Source: an uncultured Armatimonadota bacterium (GTDB taxonomy: Bacteria > Armatimonadota > Fimbriimonadia > Fimbriimonadales > Fimbriimonadaceae). From it: a DNA stretch of 64,000 nucleotides. Positions 36,018-53,748 of this stretch are shown one piece after another. Both the position numbers and the translations under genes were made by a program. Below the pieces are notes generated by a model that made no database searches, was not told the DNA's origin, and saw only the letters and a list, made by a program, of their open reading frames with translations. The stretch covers positions 1 to 64,000 of the forward strand of contig CAILEM010000153.1 in the NCBI GenBank assembly GCA_903833215.1. The letters run 5' to 3'. Every line of letters starts with the position of its first letter. Position 1 is the first letter of the stretch.

Positions 36018-39000
36018 TCATTTTCCTTTGCCCTTCTGAATCTCCATCCGCTTCAAAAAGCCGACCAAAATCGGCATGGAGCGTTTGATGAGATCGCCTT
36101 TAACCATGACGTCGCCTTCGGCGCGTTTGGCGCTCCGAATACTGAAGAATCCGGAAATGCTGTGGCCAGGGGCGAAGCCGGTGGCCTCGTCGTATTTACC
36201 GACCGTGAACATCAGCATCTCGCTTTCCATCGCCTTCTTGCCCATTCCATCATCGATGGTGCCTGTCTTCATCGCAATTCGATAACCGGCTTTGGCGACG
36301 GTCGCTCGAATCTCGGCAACGTCATCGGCAGGGATGGTTGTGATCTCGAAGAGGGGGTTAAGCAAGTGCGCTTTACGCCATGCAAATGTGTTCAGCGGTG
36401 CCGGCATCGCCTCCTTGATCGGCGTAGCGTTTGTGCTGAGGGTTGGTTGAACCTTCTTGCCGGTCGTAAGACGTGCGAAATTCGCTGCCATTGTCACCGC
36501 GTTCCATCGGCACTCACCCCCGCCGATCATATACCGGACCAATTGGCCATCAAGGTCGGTCAAGTTGGTTGTATCTGCCCAGTGAACTTCGGGAAGGCCA
36601 AGGTTCTTGAATGTCTGCTTGGAGGACTTATTGAGGTCGAAGGGGGCGAGGAATCGCTTCTCAAGGCCATCGTCCCAGCGCTTTGCTTCGTTGATGTTGA
36701 AAGGAACGACGCTTGGCCCAAAGCACTGCTCAATGCCCTTAAAATATGCGGTGTCGGCAAGCTCAATGCTCGACAAAGTCGTGGTTCGAGGGAACACCCG
36801 TCGTAACGCCAGATGTGGGAGAAACGCCATACGAGCCCCGCCCATCGACACTGGACCACCGGCTGACGGAGTCAGGATCTTTGCAAGTTCCTGTTTCATT
36901 TCCGCAGGATGCGACTTATCGGCAACGAGCCCAAGGGTCGAGGTAACGATCGCAGGCCAGGTTCGGGAATCTTTGAGGTAGGCGAACATGTCGACGTCAG
37001 ATCGAGGATTCTCCCTAGATCCAAGTCCCTTGCCTTGCTTCAGGTGGATGTCACCGAGATTCCGGTAGGCACGTCGAGTCTTTCCATCCTTGTCGACGTA
37101 TGTCTCAACACCGGCAGCTTCGCTTACATGAAGCTTGGTGAGGTCGAACGTTTTGCTATCCAACTGTGAATTCAGAGCTGAGAAACCGAGTGGCTTGATG
37201 GTGGAACCAATGGTTCGATTGACCAACGTCCAACTTGAACGAGCAGCGATCATGGCGTCAGATTCATTGGAGAACCGATTCTCAACCTTTGAGAAATCCT
37301 CACGTGGGTCGCATTGGGGGATCGATGCCAACGCTCGAATCTGTCCGCTTGATGAATCCAACACGGAGATCGCAGTGAACGGCAGTCCATCGGGCATCGG
37401 CGCTCCTCGATCAATAAGCCGGGACCGAGAACGTCCCCATGAACGCAACTCGGTGAGCAGATCGTGTTGAAGCTGCATGTCCACCGAAAGCTGCAAGTCT
37501 TCGTCTTTCTTCGAGCCAAGTCGAACAAGGTCGTCACCAATCTCGCCGATGGTGAAAGCCAACGGAAAGTCAGCGCCCTGTGGATAGGTTCGGCCAAAGC
37601 GACCATTGCGCCAAACGACACTCGCGAGTTTCGCTTCGGTTGCACCAAGGTAGTGGATCGACAACTTCTGCGGCACCCCGTCTGGTCCCGTGTATTCCAG
37701 CGAGACGATGTCCGATTCGTTGATCTCAAGCTCGTTGAATTTCAGGTCCGGACGTTTGCCATTCACCAAGATGGTGCCCGGCTTGCCGAAATTCTTCCAG
37801 CGCAGCAAGATCTTCTCGCCATCAAGCTTGATTCCGCCGTAGTCGATCATCCGCGAACCCTTGGAACCTTTGCGATCATCGAGTTGCTTCAGGTCAATGC
37901 TCTGAGCAATGATCGGCTTTACCGGACGGCCCAGATAGATTTCGCTGGGTCCGCGTCCCGACTCCAAGATAATTGGCACGCGACTTCCGCCAACGACAAG
38001 TTGCCGGCGGCGGATCATTCCGGTTGCGAGTTCCGAACCGTGCCAGGCAACGCCCAAGTCCTTCTCGAACGGCGACTTCAGGAGGAAGAATCGCTTGTCG
38101 ACAACGAGGGTGGACCCAGCACCTCTCGCCTCCATGATCGGGGTCCTTGTCACTTCGCCAGCATCGAACCCTGCGACCAACTGTCGGATAAAACTGGAAG
38201 CTCCTTTCACGGCCGCGGTCTTCTCAAGGGAGATCTGCTTCAGTCCAGCCTGCTGACGAGCATCGTCCACGGTGTGCTGAATGGCTGCGAGCGTGGACGA
38301 ACCCATATTGAAGGGCTGTGCAGGGTCGCCAGAGGTTGCCGACAGATTCACGGCCAACCAAACAAAGCCAACTGCGAGCAGCGCCGGGAAAGCCCACCAA
38401 GCCAGCGCGTTTGCTTTAGCATCCTTCCGCGCGATCGGATCGATCTGTGAACTCCACGTACCAGGGAAGGCGATCAACAGAATCGCCGCCACCAAAAGTG
38501 TCAGGTTCAGAATCAGGTCTTTCCACGAATTCAGCGAAAGAAGCGGCACGTTCTGCCCGGTAAATGGAATCAACCACAGGTTCGCAAGCGCCATGTAAAC
38601 GGTCGCGCATCCGATGACCCCAGCGATAGCATATAGCCCGCGCGCATTGGCCTTTTGATTCCGCGAGCTGGCTGCCAACCACGCACACCTGAAGATTGCC
38701 AGGGACAGCAGCAGAAGCAAACCAATGACCATCACTCCGGCGAGCTTGCCGTGCTCACCGACCAGATAAACACTAAAGGCGGCATCGGACAGCGTGGTTG
38801 GGTAGGTCATACCTACGTTTCTCAATGGGGCAGCAAAGTATCCGACACCACTACCCCGCTGGTAGGCAATCATCTGCCATCGCTGGTGCAAAGTCTCCTG
38901 CATGTGGTGCGCGGAAAATGAAGTGCGGCCGGTATCGGGGTCGACCATCAGGTGCTCGGCGGCGAGTGGATCGGTTGCGACCAAGCGATAGGGAAATGCC

Positions 39001-41318
39001 GTGCTTTTGATCACTTTGGCGGCGATGGGGTTTGTAAGCAACCGCGAACCAATCGGAACACAGAAGGCAATACCAAATAGAACGACGCCAAGAATGGCGA
39101 CGAGTCCCAGCTTGGAACCAGCCGAGCGTAGGTTTACGTTGCGTTCTTGGTTTCCTCCCGCCTTCCCGAATCCGGCGATCAAGCCACCCACGCAAAGCGC
39201 AACGGTTACGGGAATGAAAAAGAGAAATGTTCCGGGATCCAGAATGAACAGCAGGATGGAAGCAGACCAGAGCAGCGGATTTCGATCCCAGAGATTCCGC
39301 TTTGACAGGACCTTTTGTAGCCAGGGAAATCGTTCTGCGAAACTACCAAGTCGAACTTGAGCGGTCGGCTGATTGACTGGAGTTTCAGCAAATTCGTCGT
39401 CCTTCGCCTCTCCTACGCCATCAAACACCAGTCCAAGAATCACAAAGAGCACTCCGACCAGGACCATGTCAGGCATCGGAAAATGGACGAGCTTTTGAAC
39501 GACCATCAGGAAGGCAAAGGTCGTGGCCGAACCATAGGCGCACCTTGACATGAACCGCCAGGGCCGGTCTGAAGCCTTTCGTAAGAACCCGACGGTCCAC
39601 TCTCCGACATTCTCGGTCCAACGCTGTTTCACACCCGCCTGTTTGGCGCGAACGACAGCAAACGTAAGGATTCCGATGAACGGCGGAATCAGACATCCAG
39701 GGATCAGCGCCTTGGTCCAGGCACTCCGGAAAGTCGCGGCAGACACCGCATCCATGTTGAAGGGCGGCAAAATCGACACTCGAAAAGCCAAAACCAACCG
39801 CACGGCGAGCACGGCAGAAGTAACGACCCACAGCACAAATGCCGCATGGGACGAGGCGACGTTAACAGGTACACGTCTGCCCCGTGACTTCGGCAGGAAT
39901 GGAATTCGGGCAAACGAGCCAACACATACCAGCAACCCAACGACAAGCGCAATCACGGGAAGCAACCAAGGCATTCCTTGGTCTCGCAGAGGATCGGCAA
40001 GAGCGAATATCGGAGCGACTGAGCCGCCACCAAGAACCTGATTTTCGTTCGGAACCACAGGCTTGGAAGCATCCGAGCTGTTACTGCCGATGGCCAGTTT
40101 GGTTCCATCGTCGGATACGGTTGCGGTAGCTAGGAACCCTTCGTTCAGGTTTCCAGTATCAAATATGTATCCGTTTCCGTCCTGTCCCAAATCCGCGGAA
40201 GCGAGTTGCACCGTGTGGTCGCGCGAACGCAATACGTCAGATGGGGGCAAGGGATAGGCACGGGGCGGATCGAACAGAAACCTCAGTTGAGCGTGACCAC
40301 CCTCAGTCGACTCCGCTGTCGGCGGCAAAACCAGGCTACTTCGGTTGTCGCTTCCGAAGATGTCCAAGCGAAAGACGCCCTCAATTGCTGCCACCGCTGG
40401 GGCGATAGGTGCTTCCGTACGTGCCGTACCCGTCGGGAAATTTCTATAGAGATCGTTATAGGTGTCATCGGGATCAGATAGCGCTCCCTGAGCAATCTTA
40501 GCCCCTGATCGGAAAACGACTCCAAGTGCAGATTCGCCGTCTTTTCGCTTGTAGCGAACGAGCTGAACTTGGTCGAGAATCGAGTCACCGAGGTCATCGC
40601 GAGCGGCAAGCGCCCTGATGAGTTGCTTATTACCTGTTGCATTGAGCGCGTCTCGCAACGATGATCGATCTAGGAGGGGAGCCTTCTTCGTTTCTCCGTC
40701 GAAATCCCCGGATCGGATCTCAACCTGGTTTGCTTCAACCGAAATTGAGAACGCTACTCCCGGTCCAGTGAAGAACTTCGGGCTAGTGCGACGATCTGAG
40801 CGTTTACGTTGAACGTACCGAAATTCAGCCTTCTCACCAACTTTCAGCCAACCACCGACGGTGTCGTTTACACAAATACGATTGAGTCGAACGACATCAA
40901 TGGATTGATGAGCGCTGGCGCGATACGAGAGGATTCGTTTGCCTTCAGTTTGGTCGGGCCGTAGATCGATCCAAGCTCCCGATGGCAACGCAAACCAACG
41001 AAAGGCTCGCTTAACCTCAGCTTCGCTGTCGACAAGGTTGCTCGAAATTCGGACGTTTGATGTGTCACCCGATATAGATGGAACGGTGACCGCAACACCT
41101 CGATACTCGATATGCCTTACAAGCTTGTGAACGGTTTCGCCGGGAAATCCGAGGTAGGAGATCAGCAGAATGGCGATGAGGAATCCCGAAGATCCGACAT
41201 AGGCACCCGTTATCACTCTGCCCAAGGCAACCGACTCTGTTCGACGTGCTCCGGGCATCAAGAAATAGCCCAGATAAGCGAGCGTCAACAGGAACAGAAG
41301 CAGAAGAAGCAGACCCAA
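36018..41318 (-). CDS. giant SEDS (RodA/FtsW)-penicillin-binding transpeptidase fusion protein
   Basis: This 1,766-residue protein joins two peptidoglycan-synthesis enzymes. Two N-terminal membrane segments (1-21, 42-58) are followed by a ~390-residue extracytoplasmic domain (60-448). About ten further membrane segments span 450-990. The SEDS hallmarks are a QMIAYQRGSGVGYF block (815-828), an Asp845 in TTLSDAAFSVYLVGEHG that matches the catalytic Asp loop of RodA/FtsW, and IPFTGQNVPLLSL (917-929). The C-terminal part (about 1000-1766) has the PBP transpeptidase SxxK nucleophile Ser1372-Lys1375 (GSTIKPLG) and the KTGT motif (1684-1687). The middle SxN motif is not obvious. A beta-rich, FHA-like insert lies at about 1105-1230. 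The start codon is TTG with GGGGAGA upstream. It is the last gene of a four-gene operon. Confidence 0.9.
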   Translation of the reverse strand: MGLLLLLLFLLTLAYLGYFLMPGARRTESVALGRVITGAYVGSSGFLIAILLISYLGFPGETVHKLVRHIEYRGVAVTVPSISGDTSNVRISSNLVDSEAEVKRAFRWFALPSGAWIDLRPDQTEGKRILSYRASAHQSIDVVRLNRICVNDTVGGWLKVGEKAEFRYVQRKRSDRRTSPKFFTGPGVAFSISVEANQVEIRSGDFDGETKKAPLLDRSSLRDALNATGNKQLIRALAARDDLGDSILDQVQLVRYKRKDGESALGVVFRSGAKIAQGALSDPDDTYNDLYRNFPTGTARTEAPIAPAVAAIEGVFRLDIFGSDNRSSLVLPPTAESTEGGHAQLRFLFDPPRAYPLPPSDVLRSRDHTVQLASADLGQDGNGYIFDTGNLNEGFLATATVSDDGTKLAIGSNSSDASKPVVPNENQVLGGGSVAPIFALADPLRDQGMPWLLPVIALVVGLLVCVGSFARIPFLPKSRGRRVPVNVASSHAAFVLWVVTSAVLAVRLVLAFRVSILPPFNMDAVSAATFRSAWTKALIPGCLIPPFIGILTFAVVRAKQAGVKQRWTENVGEWTVGFLRKASDRPWRFMSRCAYGSATTFAFLMVVQKLVHFPMPDMVLVGVLFVILGLVFDGVGEAKDDEFAETPVNQPTAQVRLGSFAERFPWLQKVLSKRNLWDRNPLLWSASILLFILDPGTFLFFIPVTVALCVGGLIAGFGKAGGNQERNVNLRSAGSKLGLVAILGVVLFGIAFCVPIGSRLLTNPIAAKVIKSTAFPYRLVATDPLAAEHLMVDPDTGRTSFSAHHMQETLHQRWQMIAYQRGSGVGYFAAPLRNVGMTYPTTLSDAAFSVYLVGEHGKLAGVMVIGLLLLLSLAIFRCAWLAASSRNQKANARGLYAIAGVIGCATVYMALANLWLIPFTGQNVPLLSLNSWKDLILNLTLLVAAILLIAFPGTWSSQIDPIARKDAKANALAWWAFPALLAVGFVWLAVNLSATSGDPAQPFNMGSSTLAAIQHTVDDARQQAGLKQISLEKTAAVKGASSFIRQLVAGFDAGEVTRTPIMEARGAGSTLVVDKRFFLLKSPFEKDLGVAWHGSELATGMIRRRQLVVGGSRVPIILESGRGPSEIYLGRPVKPIIAQSIDLKQLDDRKGSKGSRMIDYGGIKLDGEKILLRWKNFGKPGTILVNGKRPDLKFNELEINESDIVSLEYTGPDGVPQKLSIHYLGATEAKLASVVWRNGRFGRTYPQGADFPLAFTIGEIGDDLVRLGSKKDEDLQLSVDMQLQHDLLTELRSWGRSRSRLIDRGAPMPDGLPFTAISVLDSSSGQIRALASIPQCDPREDFSKVENRFSNESDAMIAARSSWTLVNRTIGSTIKPLGFSALNSQLDSKTFDLTKLHVSEAAGVETYVDKDGKTRRAYRNLGDIHLKQGKGLGSRENPRSDVDMFAYLKDSRTWPAIVTSTLGLVADKSHPAEMKQELAKILTPSAGGPVSMGGARMAFLPHLALRRVFPRTTTLSSIELADTAYFKGIEQCFGPSVVPFNINEAKRWDDGLEKRFLAPFDLNKSSKQTFKNLGLPEVHWADTTNLTDLDGQLVRYMIGGGECRWNAVTMAANFARLTTGKKVQPTLSTNATPIKEAMPAPLNTFAWRKAHLLNPLFEITTIPADDVAEIRATVAKAGYRIAMKTGTIDDGMGKKAMESEMLMFTVGKYDEATGFAPGHSISGFFSIRSAKRAEGDVMVKGDLIKRSMPILVGFLKRMEIQKGKGK

Positions 41319-41375
41319 GATTTGTGTATCTCCCCGTGAACAAACCGATACCGTCAGCCCGATTCATTCGTTGCG

Positions 41376-43106
41376 TTAAGCTGGACGAATGATGTGAAGC
41401 CCGGATTCGCTTGGCGCGTACAGTTCTCGGAAATCACTCAGACTTGGCCCCGTATCCCGCACCGTCAGCATGATTTGAGAAAGTGAATCGACATGAGGAT
41501 GCGGCTTTGCATCGTAGGCTGGTGGAGTTACATCGCCAAATGCCTTCACCGCTCGACGCCAAGGGTCGACAACGAGCTTTCGATCAGGAAACGCCTTCGC
41601 CATTGCCTCTGAGAGGCGAGCAAGATTTGTGAGCATCGCATCGAACATTTTTTGATCGTTGCATTGCCGAGCCAAGCCGATGTTCGAAAGCGTGTAGTCC
41701 ACCAGGTAGGCGAAGGCCAAAGCCCATGCGTCGCCTCGTGGACGAGTGAGAACAATGTCATGGCAGATTGTTGCAGTCCGATTGACGAGTTCGGAATACA
41801 CCTGCTGGAACTCTGCATCGCTTCGTTCTAGCTGTTGAATTCTCTGTTGCGCATTGCGCACGTCGGTTTGGCTTGAAGCCAACTGAGACTGAGTCTTCTT
41901 GAGTTCGTCCCCCAAACGGTTGGACTTCTCTCCTTCCCGCTTCAGTTGCTCTTTGAGAGACTCTGTTTCCGTTGCGCTCGCGTTTGCTCTCGCAACCGCG
42001 ACGTCAATCTGCTTTTGGAAACTATCATGATCCTCTTTGAACTTCCGGTATTTCTCTAGCTTTTCCAGATCCTTTGTCAGAGAGTCGGACCGGTTGTATC
42101 GGTCGATCATTTGCCCAACAATGAATTCGTCACCGCTCGGGATGTGATTAGCGTCCCATCCGAGCCGTCGAATTTCGTCGCGAACCTTTTCAACGAGTTC
42201 ACGCTCATTTGCGCTGACCTTGAATCGGTCAGCTGCATCCACAGGAGACTTAGTCGAAGCTTTGGCCTTGGTTGGGGAAGACGCACGCGATTTAAGGATG
42301 TAACCACCAGCTCCGCCGACCAACAGCATGACAATTCCAGTCGCAACAAGGGGGATCGGATCTGATGAGCCTGACTTCTTGTCATCTGCAACGGTCTTTT
42401 TCTCGTCTCCGTTGCCTGTATCCGTAGGCTCCGGCTTCGTTGAATTGGTGGGGGCCACCGGGTCTCCTGCAGACGTCGGTTCCGCTACACGAACCCAAAG
42501 GAGCCCCTGCTTCTTGTCGAGGTTGATCGTGAACGACGGTTTGGCCTTCAGTCGATTCAGGACCGCAGCCCATGCTTTGCCATCGGAGATCGCACCACCC
42601 TTGTCAGACAAGAGCACGAGCAGCGTAGACGGCACCTTGGATAGATCTTTCGCAATGTCAATGAAGACCTTCTCGCTGTCAGCATCAAGCTTGGCTTCTT
42701 CCCCTTTTATCGCAAGGGTGAGTGTTTTCGGGATCGTATTGTTGTGCTTGAACGCTACCGAGACCTTTCCGTCGATGGCAGGTGAAAAATCGAATTCGGC
42801 AGCGAGAGGCAGTTCATGGTCTGCGGGTTTATCTGCCACCAACTGCCCAACATCCTTCGGCAGTTTTGACTTGGCAACCCAAGCGTCGAACGCTGGCTTC
42901 TGAGCCGCATCAACAAGTTCCCAAGCGGCACCATGTGTGAGCATGAACTTGTCTTTGCCTGCTAGGATCACCAGTCGATCTTCGGCTAACTTGCAGAAAT
43001 GGGTGTTCTCCCACCCGGCCCGAGCCATGGTGGCCATCGTACAGAGGAGAAGCGCCCCGAAGCTGCGGCAACTCAAAGCTATTCGTCGAGGAGCATGGCT
43101 GGCCAT
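41376..43106 (-). CDS. membrane-anchored coiled-coil protein of the SEDS-PBP operon
   Basis: This 576-residue protein has a signal peptide (about 1-30), an extracytoplasmic domain (31-250) and a low-complexity Pro/Thr/Lys linker (210-248). A single membrane segment (251-272, PLVATGIVMLLVGGAGGYIL) precedes a cytoplasmic coiled coil (about 343-440) and a C-terminal helical domain. The outside half and inside half are thus linked through one helix. Family not recognised. Its ATG lies inside the upstream ATPase gene (28-bp overlap), which indicates tight coupling. A role linking the cytoplasmic ATPase to the wall enzymes is inferred from the layout. Confidence 0.85.
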   Translation of the reverse strand: MASHAPRRIALSCRSFGALLLCTMATMARAGWENTHFCKLAEDRLVILAGKDKFMLTHGAAWELVDAAQKPAFDAWVAKSKLPKDVGQLVADKPADHELPLAAEFDFSPAIDGKVSVAFKHNNTIPKTLTLAIKGEEAKLDADSEKVFIDIAKDLSKVPSTLLVLLSDKGGAISDGKAWAAVLNRLKAKPSFTINLDKKQGLLWVRVAEPTSAGDPVAPTNSTKPEPTDTGNGDEKKTVADDKKSGSSDPIPLVATGIVMLLVGGAGGYILKSRASSPTKAKASTKSPVDAADRFKVSANERELVEKVRDEIRRLGWDANHIPSGDEFIVGQMIDRYNRSDSLTKDLEKLEKYRKFKEDHDSFQKQIDVAVARANASATETESLKEQLKREGEKSNRLGDELKKTQSQLASSQTDVRNAQQRIQQLERSDAEFQQVYSELVNRTATICHDIVLTRPRGDAWALAFAYLVDYTLSNIGLARQCNDQKMFDAMLTNLARLSEAMAKAFPDRKLVVDPWRRAVKAFGDVTPPAYDAKPHPHVDSLSQIMLTVRDTGPSLSDFRELYAPSESGLHIIRPA

Positions 43107-45544
43107 AACATCTCCCTCAGGTCCTTTGCGTCTTCTGACCCATATATCGACTCCTTGAGTTTAATCATCTGTCCTGAGCTTGTGGAAACCATTAGGTGAC
43201 TCGTGGTCTTCGGCGGCCGGACTTCGATCACCAAGTGGTTACAACTCATCAATGTTCCCATCACAGACCCACCAGGCTTCTTTTGCGAATCAACTCGGAA
43301 ACCCTTGGAGGGTAGATAGTAAACCACCTGGGCGTCAAAGATCGCCCTTGGCACTTCAACTCGCTTCGCCGAATTGAGTTCATCCATATCGACAGCGTAT
43401 GGGTCACCACCACCCGAGAGCGTGACAATCAACTGCCCGTGAATCGCGTCAGGATTCTGCATCACAGGATTGCTGGAGTACCAATCGAGGGCTCCGTAGG
43501 CACAACCATCTTTTAGATTCGAACCGCTGAGTTCGACGGCAAGATGCTCAATGGCTGATGGCATTTCGTCGCCTTCTCGATCCTTGGTGAAGTCTTTGAT
43601 CTTTTGGAACAGCGACGTCTTTGGTTTGGCGACGATCTTAGCCGCCTTTGCATTCGTTGATCCGAGTTCTTTGAGTCTCTCTTCGGTGAAGATACTGCCG
43701 AATCCCGACTCTTTGAGGAGCTTGTTCAACCGGGCTTTCAGTGGCTTGAACTGCGAGCCCTGTCCAGCGAGAATTAGGTGAGTGCGGACGTGTTTCGGTT
43801 TGTAGCCGGGGTTGCCTTTGATGGTCGTCCGTGACCCCATCATAAAGGCGAGAGCCTCAACGGCACTTTCAAATTCAATCGTATCGTTTCCGCTGACGTG
43901 CGCCTGAGCAAGTTCGATAAGCACCTCATCAAGATTCTCCAGAACATAAGCTTCGACTTCACGCTCAAGTTCCGACCAAATCTGTTCGAATTCCTCTGAA
44001 TACGGGTCAGCGGGTAGATGTGACGAACCCTTCCCCGCCGTTGCCAGAGCCTTCGAATTACCGGTACTGCGCGCCGTGGATCGAAGTCGATTAGGGCTTT
44101 CCAACGCGTCGGAAATCGCAGATCTGATTTGTGCACGTTGAGCCAGAGTCAGGAGGACATCGTAGATCGCCGATGCTTGGTCCAAGGTGATTTGCGCTAC
44201 GTAGTCCGCGATCTCCGCGATCTCGGGTCTCGGCCCAGCATCGGGGATGGAGACTCCAGTAGCTGATAAGTCGAGCTCACGTTTGTACATGTCACAAATT
44301 CGCTCGAAATCGAGCAGGCGTCGGCTCTGGGCGGAGTCTTCTGGGATCTGGACCGTGCTTCGGGTCGTAAAGCGCAGCGGTGAGCGATCAATCTCCTTGA
44401 GTCGTCCCGCCTCTTCCGGACTGAGCGTGGCGAAGGAGTCAAGCGTCTTTCTAAGGTTCGCGTCGATGAGTCGCTCAAAGAACTTGGCGAGAATGAAGGT
44501 CATCTTCGCACCACCGCTGGCACGTCCGGTCCTCGCATCGACATACACGTGCTTCATCACTGCCGTCGATTCAGGACGCAAACCTCTGGCTCGCTTTTCA
44601 TTGTCGCTCGCGTCTTTGTGGGTGACTGCCATGAGCGTCAGATCGGTCGTGCCTTTGCCAATATCGATCGTCAGGTATTTCTGCTCCATGCCCTGCATCT
44701 CAGAGCCAGTGAGCCCGGTATCCGGCTGAACCTTGGCGATGTAGTAGAACACAACCGCATCGGATTCGGTAATCGTCTCAACCTCGCAACCAAGCGTCTG
44801 CTTCACGGATTCTGCGAGCACTTCACGATGGAAGGGACTATATGTGTTCGGCACGGTCAGAACCACGACGCAATCCCGCCAGTTGGGCATTCGGTTGAGT
44901 TCATCCCGAAGATCAGGATGGGGTCGAATGAAGTTCTCCAAGATGAGGCAAACCTGGTTCTTGATGATTTCGACAGGGTGGAGCTTTATCCAGTCGGCCC
45001 GCCCTTCCGCCATAACTTCATAGTGCTTCTCGAGCCCCACACCCGACTGAAAGATCAGCTTGGCATTAGGAAGCAGGGTGCTGGATGGAAACGGAGCCGA
45101 TGTGTCATCGATGAACTTGAAGAAGCACCTGTTGGAGTTTCTGGCCATGTCCGCTTTTGATCCACTCGATCGAGCTTCGCGAATGTACTGCTCAAAGTCG
45201 AGAAGCGGAGTTTGGCAATGGCCGTCAGGCAAGACTTCTAGATACCCGTACTGGGGATGCTCGCGAGATTGCACAGGCTCGGATGTCTGAAAGAGGGTGT
45301 TCACCGCGTAACGACTCTTCAGGCGATGAGATGGGCGGTCATATCGATCTCGCAGAAGGTCAGGAACCGTTGCGAGTGCTCGCAAGAAGTACTGCAGCTC
45401 AATTTGACGGTATTCGGTTTGCCCTGGCACCCCCACAAACGCGACGGTGGAATCCGACCCAAGATCGAGCGAAATCCGAAACATTTTGCTTCGGTCGACG
45501 GGCTTCGCTATCTGTGGCTCAAGGTTTGTGTCTTCGGGGTTCAT
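43079..45544 (-). CDS. Hsp70/actin-superfamily ATPase of the SEDS-PBP operon
   Basis: This 821-residue cytoplasmic protein has the three nucleotide-binding motifs of the actin/Hsp70 fold: phosphate-1 ISLDLGSDST (24-33), phosphate-2 YLTIDIGKGTTDLTL (290-304) and the adenosine motif HLILAGQGSQF (589-599). Long helical inserts lie between them. It is larger than MreB or FtsA and is not a normal DnaK because it lacks the peptide-binding domain layout. No membrane segment is visible. Co-location with a SEDS-PBP fusion suggests an MreB- or FtsA-like scaffold role, but that is an inference. It overlaps its neighbours on both sides (4 bp upstream, 28 bp downstream). Confidence 0.85.
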   Translation of the reverse strand: MNPEDTNLEPQIAKPVDRSKMFRISLDLGSDSTVAFVGVPGQTEYRQIELQYFLRALATVPDLLRDRYDRPSHRLKSRYAVNTLFQTSEPVQSREHPQYGYLEVLPDGHCQTPLLDFEQYIREARSSGSKADMARNSNRCFFKFIDDTSAPFPSSTLLPNAKLIFQSGVGLEKHYEVMAEGRADWIKLHPVEIIKNQVCLILENFIRPHPDLRDELNRMPNWRDCVVVLTVPNTYSPFHREVLAESVKQTLGCEVETITESDAVVFYYIAKVQPDTGLTGSEMQGMEQKYLTIDIGKGTTDLTLMAVTHKDASDNEKRARGLRPESTAVMKHVYVDARTGRASGGAKMTFILAKFFERLIDANLRKTLDSFATLSPEEAGRLKEIDRSPLRFTTRSTVQIPEDSAQSRRLLDFERICDMYKRELDLSATGVSIPDAGPRPEIAEIADYVAQITLDQASAIYDVLLTLAQRAQIRSAISDALESPNRLRSTARSTGNSKALATAGKGSSHLPADPYSEEFEQIWSELEREVEAYVLENLDEVLIELAQAHVSGNDTIEFESAVEALAFMMGSRTTIKGNPGYKPKHVRTHLILAGQGSQFKPLKARLNKLLKESGFGSIFTEERLKELGSTNAKAAKIVAKPKTSLFQKIKDFTKDREGDEMPSAIEHLAVELSGSNLKDGCAYGALDWYSSNPVMQNPDAIHGQLIVTLSGGGDPYAVDMDELNSAKRVEVPRAIFDAQVVYYLPSKGFRVDSQKKPGGSVMGTLMSCNHLVIEVRPPKTTSHLMVSTSSGQMIKLKESIYGSEDAKDLREMLWPAMLLDE

Positions 45545-47154
45545 GGATTTTCAAGAGATCTAAGTTCGCGTTGAGGCAAGGCTAAGAATCGAACGTGAAT
45601 CTTGGCGTGTTGGTTCCGCCCCAAACCAAGTTCGCGCTCAATAGCGATATCGAAATGACCTCCGCTCGACGGACGTTCCTGCCAAACAAGTTTCACCACC
45701 GTTGGTAACTCCGTCAGTTTAGCTCTGTCAGATGATGGCATTCCCACGCATTCCAATCTGGCGTCCCACTGGAGGACCGCCGTCCGGCAAAAAAGCTTTC
45801 GAACGAGGAATGGTGGCAGGGTAACCACCGCAGCTAACTCGCCTTCAGTGGTTGGCATGCGTAAGATGAAGTCCGATGTGGCATTTTTCGGTAATGCGGG
45901 AAGCGCAAAGGAGGTGACATATCCAGGAAGCCAGAAGCAAAATCGAACTTTCTTTGACAGCCTGATATAACTCCAAATCAACAAGACAAAAAGGCCGACA
46001 AGTCCTCCGACAGCCTTCAGCATCGAGCGCATTCTTAGCCCAGCGGGTAAGGTTACGTCTTGATCAAGCTGGACCCGAAACTCTTGCCTTCCCAATATCG
46101 GATTCGACGCGGAAGCAGCCACGAAGAGTGAGGCCACCGCCGAATTGCCGCGAAGGGTTCTCATTGATAACGAATTTGCCCCTGACACAATAAATGGTTT
46201 TGCAGCAACGCGTTGCCCGGATTCCATGGCTCCCGGGGGCTCCAAAGTGAAGAAGGCAGATAAGCCGATAAGTTCACGTGGGGAGTTGAGAGCCACCTTA
46301 AGACCCTCCCCAGAATCCTCGACGCTCAAACCGAGGTGCGAAAGCTGGTTCTGGACATTGAGGGCTCGAACAGCTGTCGTCTTGGGTACCGCCTTGAATA
46401 CCCGAACCGAAACGGTATCCGCCCCCTTCCCGAATGTCCGCATGAGCCAAGGCTCCGAAGAACCGTATTTGCCTTCCAAGGATAGCGATTGATCGACAAG
46501 CCGCTGTTTATCTCGAATCCGGTTGCGCGCTTTGTCCGAAAGGAGAATGCCTACGGATGAAGGATCAATTGACCGCCCATTGAAATCTCTGGGGTCATCA
46601 CTGATGACAATGACGTACGTATCTTGGATCTTGAGTCCAGGAACATTTGCCGTTGAAAGGGCTGGATTCAATGCAAGAGATGAGGTGTTTGAGTAGGTGC
46701 GTGTTCGCACCTGCAGTGCCGCAGCAAGCCGTTTACGCGACATCCAATTGTTGGCCCAAACCACTCGCTTGACGTACAAATCTTCCGGCTTTTCAAGCTG
46801 GCCAGCCATTCCAGGTGTAGTGGATCGGGGGACTAGGCCGATGCCATATTGGACCAAGGTGATGTAGTCCTTCCCCTGTCGGAACCAGGAATCTTGTCCC
46901 AAACGGCCCGGACTGAGCAGCAGATCTTGAACTTCCTTTTCTGCTGAGGCCAACGCGATTTGCTTCTCAGATACCGGAATGAATAGGTTGCTCGTTGCCG
47001 ACATCGCAGCGCGCGCATCTACAAGCACGATGAAATGCCTTCGGCCCTCCGGAATCTGGATCGTCGATGAAGGCCCCCGTGCAAATGCCGGGGTCATAAC
47101 GACGAAGAGGCTTGCAGGCAACAAAACCATCCGCCTGCAAACCCGTTTCGCCAT
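45541..47154 (-). CDS. membrane VWA-like protein of the SEDS-PBP operon
   Basis: This 537-residue protein begins with a signal peptide (about 1-26). Then comes a von Willebrand A-like domain with a central strand HFIVLVDARAAMS (degenerate MIDAS, Asp near residue 47) and a second strand TYVIVISDDPRDFN. An intermediate beta region leads to one membrane segment at about 380-399 (GGLVGLFVLLIWSYIRL). The C-terminal ~130 residues are probably cytoplasmic. The start at the ATG 47154 is chosen over TTG 47157 because TAAAGT lies 6 nt before it. The stop overlaps the ATPase gene start by 4 bp (ATGA). Confidence 0.78.
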   Translation of the reverse strand: MAKRVCRRMVLLPASLFVVMTPAFARGPSSTIQIPEGRRHFIVLVDARAAMSATSNLFIPVSEKQIALASAEKEVQDLLLSPGRLGQDSWFRQGKDYITLVQYGIGLVPRSTTPGMAGQLEKPEDLYVKRVVWANNWMSRKRLAAALQVRTRTYSNTSSLALNPALSTANVPGLKIQDTYVIVISDDPRDFNGRSIDPSSVGILLSDKARNRIRDKQRLVDQSLSLEGKYGSSEPWLMRTFGKGADTVSVRVFKAVPKTTAVRALNVQNQLSHLGLSVEDSGEGLKVALNSPRELIGLSAFFTLEPPGAMESGQRVAAKPFIVSGANSLSMRTLRGNSAVASLFVAASASNPILGRQEFRVQLDQDVTLPAGLRMRSMLKAVGGLVGLFVLLIWSYIRLSKKVRFCFWLPGYVTSFALPALPKNATSDFILRMPTTEGELAAVVTLPPFLVRKLFCRTAVLQWDARLECVGMPSSDRAKLTELPTVVKLVWQERPSSGGHFDIAIERELGLGRNQHAKIHVRFLALPQRELRSLENP

Positions 47155-47160
47155 CAAACC

Positions 47161-52401: not shown

Positions 52402-53748
52402 CTAAAGAGAAGAAATGACTTCGGAAAGTTGGTCTAGGCTCATGTTCCAGCCTATCTCCATACCGCCGAGCATCATGGTTCCCTGCTCCGAGAATGCGGA
52501 GTTGTAAGAGTTTACGGTGACTTTGGTGGTGTCTCCAAGATCCTCGAACATCACAAATGTGCCTCCTTGAATCGCGACGGAACCATCAAAGCCAGCCACG
52601 CTGTTCACCCATCCAAAGCTTTGGTTCGGTTCAACGTCGGTGATCTCTGAAATCATCGCATGCTCCATTCCGTCTGGGCTTCGCATCACTAAAGTGATAT
52701 ATCCGCCGGGCCTAAGGTCAATCTCGCATTTCGGGCAAGTGTAGGGTCGTGGGGTGAACCATACACCCAAGTGTTGCGGCTCTGTCCAACACTTCCACAC
52801 CAAATCGACGGGTGCCTTGAACTCGCGAACCAAGCTCACCGTCCTATCTGCCAGGGTGGCACCCACCAAGACGCCAAGCTTGTGAATCGTCGTACTCCAA
52901 CCACCCAGATGCGCCGCCCGCGCCTCCTCAGACCAGAAGCCGGATTGCACAAAGGTCATTGTTGTACAGCCTTCATGCTCACTGAGCTTGACGCTGACGA
53001 GGGTGGTGGGCTTGAATGAGCCGTCTTCCTTCTCCCAACGATGGCTGTATTCAAGGAGCGTCATCGGTTCGACGCGAAGATACTCCCCTTCGGCCTTTAG
53101 GGCGTATCCGGTGGGCGTGAACATGGTTGAGTGCCATCGACCACCGGGGACAAGGTCATCGCTCGAACGTTCCATCGTCAAGCCCATGGGGCAACCCCAC
53201 TGACTAATCTGGTCTTCTTCGGTAATCGCCTTCCAGACCGTCTCAAGCGGCGCCTTGAACTTGCGGACGATTACGAGGTCGATTCCCGCTTTATCCTGGT
53301 CAGCTACATATTCATCGAGGCGACTCATTGTCATCGTCAGCCCTTCCTCTGCGCCGAATTCATCGATTACTCGCTGTCGTTCTTCTGTGGATGGGAAAGT
53401 GAGACGGAACTGCATCTCAGTCTCACCCTCCTTACGCAGAAATTTAACGTTGACGGTGAATCCGACTACGTCATCCTTCCCAGCGTGTTCGTAGGCGATT
53501 TCGTCGCTAGTGATCCTTGTGAAGCGAACGAGATTAGGAAAGTCAGTTCCATCCGGGCCGTGCATGGTGAAACGCCAGGTGCCGCCGGGCTTGAAGTCCA
53601 TTTCGTGGGTCGTTGTGCGAAACCCGGTGGGGCCCCACCAATGGGTGAGGTGTTCGGGGTTCGACCACATTCTAAGCAGTAGCTCAGAAGAGGCTTTGTA
53701 GGTTCTTGTGCAGAAGATTTCGCGAGAGGCATCTATGGAAGGGGTCAC
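52402..53748 (-). CDS. triple AHSA1 (SRPBCC/START-like) domain protein
   Basis: This 448-residue protein consists of three tandem AHSA1/ATPase-homologue-type SRPBCC domains: about 8-152, 157-300 and 308-448. Each opens with the pattern R-x-F-x-A-P-x-x-x-V-W-x-x-x-T-x-P (TRTYKASSELLLRMWSNPEHL, VRKFKAPLETVWKAITEED, VREFKAPVDLVWKCWTEPQHL) and has a W-W/W-F-x-P motif. Single-domain forms are common; a triple fusion is less usual. The start overlaps the ArsR gene by 4 bp (ATGA), so the two form one operon. Ligand unknown. Confidence 0.9.
   Translation of the reverse strand: MTPSIDASREIFCTRTYKASSELLLRMWSNPEHLTHWWGPTGFRTTTHEMDFKPGGTWRFTMHGPDGTDFPNLVRFTRITSDEIAYEHAGKDDVVGFTVNVKFLRKEGETEMQFRLTFPSTEERQRVIDEFGAEEGLTMTMSRLDEYVADQDKAGIDLVIVRKFKAPLETVWKAITEEDQISQWGCPMGLTMERSSDDLVPGGRWHSTMFTPTGYALKAEGEYLRVEPMTLLEYSHRWEKEDGSFKPTTLVSVKLSEHEGCTTMTFVQSGFWSEEARAAHLGGWSTTIHKLGVLVGATLADRTVSLVREFKAPVDLVWKCWTEPQHLGVWFTPRPYTCPKCEIDLRPGGYITLVMRSPDGMEHAMISEITDVEPNQSFGWVNSVAGFDGSVAIQGGTFVMFEDLGDTTKVTVNSYNSAFSEQGTMMLGGMEIGWNMSLDQLSEVISSL

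Follow-up and report, generated by a model that had tools for sequence, protein, structure and literature searches.

The well-studied peptidoglycan synthases formed by a SEDS polymerase and a class B penicillin-binding protein (bPBP) rely on a scaffold of actin- or tubulin-type proteins. In the divisome core (FtsA-FtsQLB-FtsWI) the SEDS-bPBP pair is regulated by an ATPase, with single-transmembrane (TM) coiled-coil proteins as partners. The same assortment of elements is predicted for an operon of four minus-strand genes at positions 36018-47157 of the DNA analyzed here, a stretch of 64,000 nucleotides (hereafter the window) from an uncultured bacterium of the Fimbriimonadaceae, phylum Armatimonadota (contig CAILEM010000153.1, positions 1 to 64,000). 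The genes encode, in order, a VWA-like membrane protein, an Hsp70-like ATPase, a coiled-coil protein (the linker) and a SEDS-bPBP fusion, and they probably specify an accessory, self-contained peptidoglycan synthase that would sense through the VWA protein and be switched by the ATPase. The operon differs from the divisome in that FtsA gave the poorest match to its ATPase among the three proteins tested, and a canonical FtsW/RodA pair is encoded elsewhere in the genome.

The Rod complex (MreB-MreC-MreD-RodZ-RodA-PBP2) likewise couples a SEDS protein and a bPBP to an actin-superfamily ATPase via membrane linkers (PMC13327600). The operon departs from it in the Hsp70-like nature of the ATPase, in the added VWA protein and in having SEDS and bPBP in one chain, while MreB is encoded elsewhere in the genome; no MreC-, MreD- or RodZ-like Pfam family was found among the operon and its flanking genes. 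Natural fusions with both SEDS and bPBP activities in a single open reading frame (ORF) are already known (PMC10449877); compared with those detected in other loci of the phylum, the operon fusion is longer by ~450 residues at its N-terminus, which include a periplasmic domain, and has diverged much further. VWA proteins accompany Hsp70-like ATPases in the group made up of TerY-P triads, which are tied to tellurite resistance and phage defence, and of VWA/Hsp70 conflict systems such as the CoCoNuTs (PMC11090510), whereas the output of the operon would be a wall synthase and not nucleases, and the genus of the window lacks TerY. Finally, in the systems of FtsZl1 and Pfam Tubulin_2, taken here as one family by assumption, a VWA gene shares an operon with genes for a cytoskeletal NTPase, for kinases and for envelope proteins; the FtsZl1 operons, which include VWA, kinase and OmpA genes, have been proposed as membrane-remodelling machines (Makarova and Koonin 2010, PMC2875224). 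The exact combination found in the window, for which a preliminary description of this DNA gave no precedent, was not encountered in the open-access literature searched.

Distribution and conservation of the operon

Relatives were sought in 61 related genomes, then in 113 genomes of the order and, with profiles, in 291 Armatimonadota genomes. In the first two sets the ATPase is present only in the window genome (G000) and in three species of the same genus (G019, G017 and G007), and among the 61 relatives the fusion is found in these same four genomes. Both profiles retrieved relatives over their full length from an identical set of 5 of the 291 genomes, clustered in all five, the addition being a distant Armatimonadota species (G147). 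The order VWA, ATPase, linker, fusion is kept in G019, G017 and G007; in G147 the ATPase is followed by a linker-like gene and then by the fusion. The 28-bp overlap between the ATPase and linker genes is, from the coordinates, identical in G000, G019 and G017. Because intact related frames exist in three further species of the genus and in a distant one, chance ORFs are ruled out. The preliminary description had proposed to examine whether the order is conserved, and had named as contrary findings a scattering of the homologues or a plain DnaK/SrfB-like ATPase that does not co-occur with the fusion; what was found is a shared order in the genus and a joint presence of ATPase and fusion, in one cluster, in every carrier.

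Within the genus the distribution is patchy (4 of the 20 genomes). The carriers are larger-genome species, 4.9-6.2 Mb, and other large-genome species of the genus are without the operon. Identity to the window proteins across the three other species of the genus ranges from 28 to 69% for the ATPase and from 27 to 62% for the fusion. Between G000 and G019, MreB is 96% identical, DnaK 91% and a bPBP 67%, and the corresponding values are 69% for the operon ATPase, 62.5% for the fusion and 34% for the VWA protein, which thus has the lowest conservation among the operon proteins compared, three in number. The ATPase of G007 is only 28% identical to that of the window, whereas its bPBP reaches 58%; therefore, the G007 copy is fast-evolving or no simple orthologue.

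Outside the Armatimonadota, coverage consisted of one scan of close relatives, viral contigs and plasmids. The ATPase scan of genome contigs of close relatives gave a single match, the genome of G019 itself, and the viral contigs searched gave none. A plasmid match in Caballeronia was rejected as chance, its neighbourhood consisting of GC-rich low-complexity frames in which no VWA, SEDS or PBP gene was recognised, and plasmid Hsp70 matches were set aside as generic.

Elsewhere in G000 there are two canonical SEDS genes (FtsW/RodA), three genes with transpeptidase domains and two strong MreB matches, and a 404-aa ORF on contig C147 was taken to be FtsA, judging by how it starts and how long it is. 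Since canonical SEDS, bPBP and MreB genes, among those that the preliminary description had suggested looking for, are thus present elsewhere, we regard the operon as encoding an accessory synthase.

The ATPase, the membrane proteins and the predicted synthase

The ATPase lacks TM segments and displays the motifs phosphate-1 LDLGSDS (26-32), TVPNTY (230-235), phosphate-2 DIGKGTTD (294-301) and adenosine LAGQ (592-595), together with E260, an Hsp70-type residue. D27, G29, P232, E260, D294, G296, G298, T299, D301 and G594 are invariant in seven relatives, in agreement with the actin/Hsp70 fold initially assigned. No Pfam family, HSP70 included, matches the window ATPase; the MreB_Mbl matches that were listed for G000 do not include it, and it does not fall within the MreB or FtsA families. 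In hhalign comparisons DnaK (E 2.5e-4) ranked above MreB (E 0.003, prob 10) and FtsA (E 0.016, prob 3), and the matches of a profile search were weak (best E 0.015) and nearly all Hsp70s, with one actin-family structure among them. A second protein of G147, in which a VWA region is joined to an Hsp70 domain, bridges the two groups: it passes the Pfam HSP70 cut-off (23.0 vs 20.6 bits) and matches both DnaK structures (E 4e-4) and the hidden Markov model (HMM) of the operon ATPase (E 3e-20). Because of this ranking and of the bridging protein, a position nearer to Hsp70/DnaK than to MreB or FtsA is better supported by the sequence comparisons, at low scores, and the analogy with MreB/FtsA filaments drawn in the preliminary description is not supported. 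Only ~220 aa follow the adenosine motif, the stretch in which a canonical Hsp70 substrate-binding domain would be sought.

By hydropathy, the VWA and PBP domains would be located outside the membrane and the ATPase and the coiled coil inside. The VWA-like protein comprises a signal peptide, a periplasmic alpha/beta (VWA-like) and beta region, a TM segment at ~380-398 and a cytoplasmic tail domain. No Pfam VWA match was obtained for the window protein, and weak ones appeared only for its G007 homologue. The DxSxS motif of the metal ion-dependent adhesion site (MIDAS) is intact in G019, in both G007 copies and in G147. A VWA-like membrane protein, as first described, is confirmed; the MIDAS of the window copy is considered below. 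In G007 the VWA protein and the ATPase are fused in one 1,263-aa polypeptide (locus L014), and the ATPase of G147 bears the tail domain of the VWA protein at its N-terminus. Of the evidence for contact between the VWA tail and the ATPase, this joining of the two, seen in two lineages, is the strongest.

The linker shows a signal peptide, a periplasmic domain (~30-250), a TM segment (253-271), a cytoplasmic coiled coil (~345-450) and a conserved C-terminal domain, a layout that accords with the single-TM coiled-coil protein with domains on both sides of the membrane proposed earlier. It is one gene in the window and two overlapping genes in G019 (L012 10209-12087) and G017 (L013 11352-13263). 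The linker-like gene of G147 has the same place and layout, with no sequence similarity to the linker detected. The C-terminal peptides read GLHIIRPA in the window, AHAVHV in G007 and, in the equivalently placed gene of G147, DHIGIV, and might constitute a docking tail. Pfam and PADLOC matches of the linker to MscS_porin, JetC and LmuB were rejected as coiled-coil similarity. Between the linker and fusion genes G017 has an extra 248-aa ORF (L013 10186-10932) with a C-terminal hydrophobic stretch.

The N-terminal part of the fusion contains two TM segments, a periplasmic domain (~60-445), a TM segment at ~452 and the SEDS core (~494-953, with D694, P840, D845 and PFTGQ); the C-terminal part contains the PBP TM segment (~972-990), a periplasmic pedestal (~1000-1260) and the transpeptidase (~1270-1766, with S1372-T-I-K1375, S1451 and K1684-T-G-T). 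The hydropathy profile allows for an additional periplasmic domain at the N-terminus, ten SEDS helices and one PBP helix. For the PBP part, Pfam gave E 0.0047 (below cut-off), TIGR03423 (PBP2) E 1.4e-6 and hhalign against 14 bPBPs prob 98, E 1e-13; for the SEDS part, hhalign against 15 canonical SEDS proteins gave E 4.7e-5 (prob 68) and placed D845 opposite the conserved catalytic Asp. These scores uphold the 1,766-residue SEDS-PBP fusion of the preliminary description. SEDS membership rests on homology to RodA/FtsW and on D845 at the position of the catalytic Asp of periplasmic loop 4, invariant in five relatives. Used as a profile, the fusion alignment matched nothing in the PDB, and an FHA-like look of residues ~1120-1225 found no Pfam support.

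In E. coli RodA, D262 is catalytic, the P257A variant is inactive and D159 is also named (PMC10449877). Their counterparts by position in the fusion are D845, P840 and D694, the matches of P840 and D694 having been read from alignments. The spacing between D845 and P840 is 5 residues, as between D262 and P257, and P840 is present in 4 of 5 relatives. SxxK (1372-1375), KTGT (1684-1687), D845 and D694 are invariant in all five. Identity between the G000 and G019 fusions is highest in the bin of the catalytic loop (801-900), 84% versus 62.5% overall, with 78% in the SxxK bin (1301-1400), a pattern to be expected if the active site is constrained; since the bin with the catalytic loop is the most conserved, the fusion may be argued to be an active enzyme. 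To present a SEDS-PBP fusion as a novelty is too strong, fusions being known and other lineages existing in the same phylum: those of G137, G209, G222, G223, G225 and G147:C34 (loci L046 7739-10984, L099, L101, L102, L104, L106) have ~1,000-1,120 aa and Pfam matches to both domains, strong in five and weaker in G147:C34, whose fusion also has an N-terminal helix-hairpin-helix region. The operon-fusion profile touches 12 other genomes at 17-25 bits, in short, mostly PBP stretches, and the five of these low-scoring frames that were inspected carry Pfam SEDS and transpeptidase domains and belong to a different fusion lineage.

Proposed mechanism and alternatives

The genes, their domains and topology, the conserved order and co-occurrence, the VWA-ATPase fusion and the catalytic motifs are supported at the sequence level. 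In the model that we propose, the periplasmic VWA-like protein would sense or bind something in the envelope, and the signal would cross via its TM segment and cytoplasmic tail, which would bind the Hsp70-like ATPase. The ATPase, changing its conformation with ATP, would act through the membrane-spanning coiled-coil linker to switch or position the synthase, whose SEDS part would polymerise lipid II and whose bPBP part would cross-link it, within one chain. The direction of signalling, the physical complex, the catalytic activity and the time of use are what we infer. Several points weigh against this proposal: (i) four of the five carrier genomes belong to one genus, so that independent evolutionary support amounts to about two lineages; (ii) the MIDAS of the window VWA-like protein is degenerate, with DARAA in place of DxSxS; (iii) AlphaFold models of the ATPase and the VWA protein, from alignments of two sequences, are of low confidence (mean pLDDT, the predicted local distance difference test, 31 and 38); (iv) in the window fusion the SEDS part has diverged beyond the reach of Pfam (PF01098), and the GGSS motif is lost; and (v) the SxN motif of the PBP is degenerate (S-x-T/D).

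Four genes for a synthase, its ATPase and its linkers, separable from the canonical machinery and linked to a VWA-like protein through a naturally occurring gene fusion, would let the control exerted by an ATPase across the membrane be tested directly; they would connect the cell wall with TerY-P and VWA/Hsp70 modules, whose known roles lie mostly in stress and defence, and they suggest that wall synthesis may also be driven in a way distinct from the elongation and division machinery already described. Tentatively, the operon may even represent a third class of wall-synthase machine, in which an Hsp70-like ATPase, not an actin filament, would allosterically switch a single-chain synthase upon periplasmic VWA sensing; TerY-P phosphosignalling would be an optional upstream element, and the same VWA-ATPase pair could alternatively work with a tubulin-like protein.

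A synthase reserved for development or for a particular shape (stalk, bud, spore coat or polar cap) and needed at one life stage only is rather doubtful. It would suit an operon additional to the canonical set and carried by larger genomes of the genus, but no developmental genes were recognised near the operon and, as stated, other large-genome species lack it.

The module of G147 is located directly downstream of a complete TerY-P triad (G147:C342; L026 1877-9028), in which TerY and the STK_OB kinase are each encoded twice and PP2C once, with E ~1e-77 for TerY, 2e-16 for PP2C and ~1e-74 for STK_OB. As indicated by exact direct repeats (672 and 610 bp), the TerY and kinase genes were either duplicated very recently or doubled through an artefact of assembly. 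The G+C of the contig (62-63%) is the same as that of other contigs there, although a contamination of 6% is stated for the genome. The triad, the links of TerY-P with tellurite resistance and phage defence, the patchiness in the genus and the low conservation of the periplasmic VWA protein relative to the ATPase would fit a stress or anti-phage module, where the VWA protein and a TerY-P phospho-switch sense envelope damage and the synthase, as effector, reinforces the wall. It is nevertheless unlikely, as TerY is absent from the window genome and the same-genus genomes, the triad accompanying only the G147 version of the locus; no PADLOC family is matched by the ATPase or the VWA protein of the window, and the linker has matches only via its coiled coil; and the flanks hold mostly sugar- and peptide-active enzymes, with no nuclease or known effector.

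A model in line with the preliminary description would have the ATPase polymerise like MreB or FtsA, the synthase moving along or with filaments under cytoskeletal guidance. The actin-superfamily fold motifs and the actin-family structure among the weak profile matches would agree with this, and the module keeps cytoskeletal company in G007, at a second locus (L015 6041-15612; G007:C1 ~2893-2903 kb) where Tubulin_2 (PF13809) is followed by a VWA gene, an operon-family ATPase gene and that of a 719-aa coiled-coil protein. This locus is without a SEDS-PBP synthase and its paralogous VWA-ATPase pair is diverged, and it suggests that the Tubulin_2 protein is an alternative partner for the pair. 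Tubulin_2 is present in 84 of the 291 Armatimonadota genomes; at seven other Tubulin_2 loci the HMMs found neither the operon ATPase nor the VWA protein, and the window genome gave no Tubulin_2 match. With profile comparison favouring Hsp70 over MreB and FtsA, and no polymerisation feature found in the ATPase sequence, guidance by filaments is improbable. Of the alternative peptidoglycan synthase with its own ATPase and linkers first put forward, the conserved, co-occurring gene set is supported and the actin-filament analogy is not.

A catalytically dead scaffold or receptor, which the extreme divergence of the fusion and its degenerate SxN and GGSS would allow, is very improbable given the invariant SxxK, KTGT, SEDS Asp and D694 and the conservation of the catalytic-loop bin.

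Operon layout and neighbouring genes

The coordinates bear out the minus-strand run first reported, with 4-bp and 28-bp overlaps and then one 57-bp gap at the junctions (Table 1).

Table 1. Genes of the operon, with positions in the window
Feature	Position	Strand	Basis
VWA-like membrane protein, 538 aa	45541..47157	-	ORF, hydropathy, motif reading
Hsp70-like (actin superfamily) cytoplasmic ATPase, 821 aa (predicted)	43079..45544	-	motifs, hhalign, profile search
Linker protein, single-TM coiled coil, 576 aa	41376..43106	-	ORF, hydropathy, relatives
SEDS-bPBP fusion, 1,766 aa, TTG start	36018..41318	-	TIGR03423, hhalign, motifs

The G+C content of the operon, 54.2%, is intermediate between those of its flanks (55.3% and 53.1%), where an M60 peptidase, a SASA esterase, glycosidases, OsmC and a glutaminase-like protein are encoded. 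In G019, a gene fusing a beta-lactamase fold with a NamZ exo-muramidase is divergent from the VWA gene (L012 16195-18558). At positions 52402-53748 of the window, a 448-aa protein contains three AHSA1 stretches and a polyketide-cyclase-like domain.

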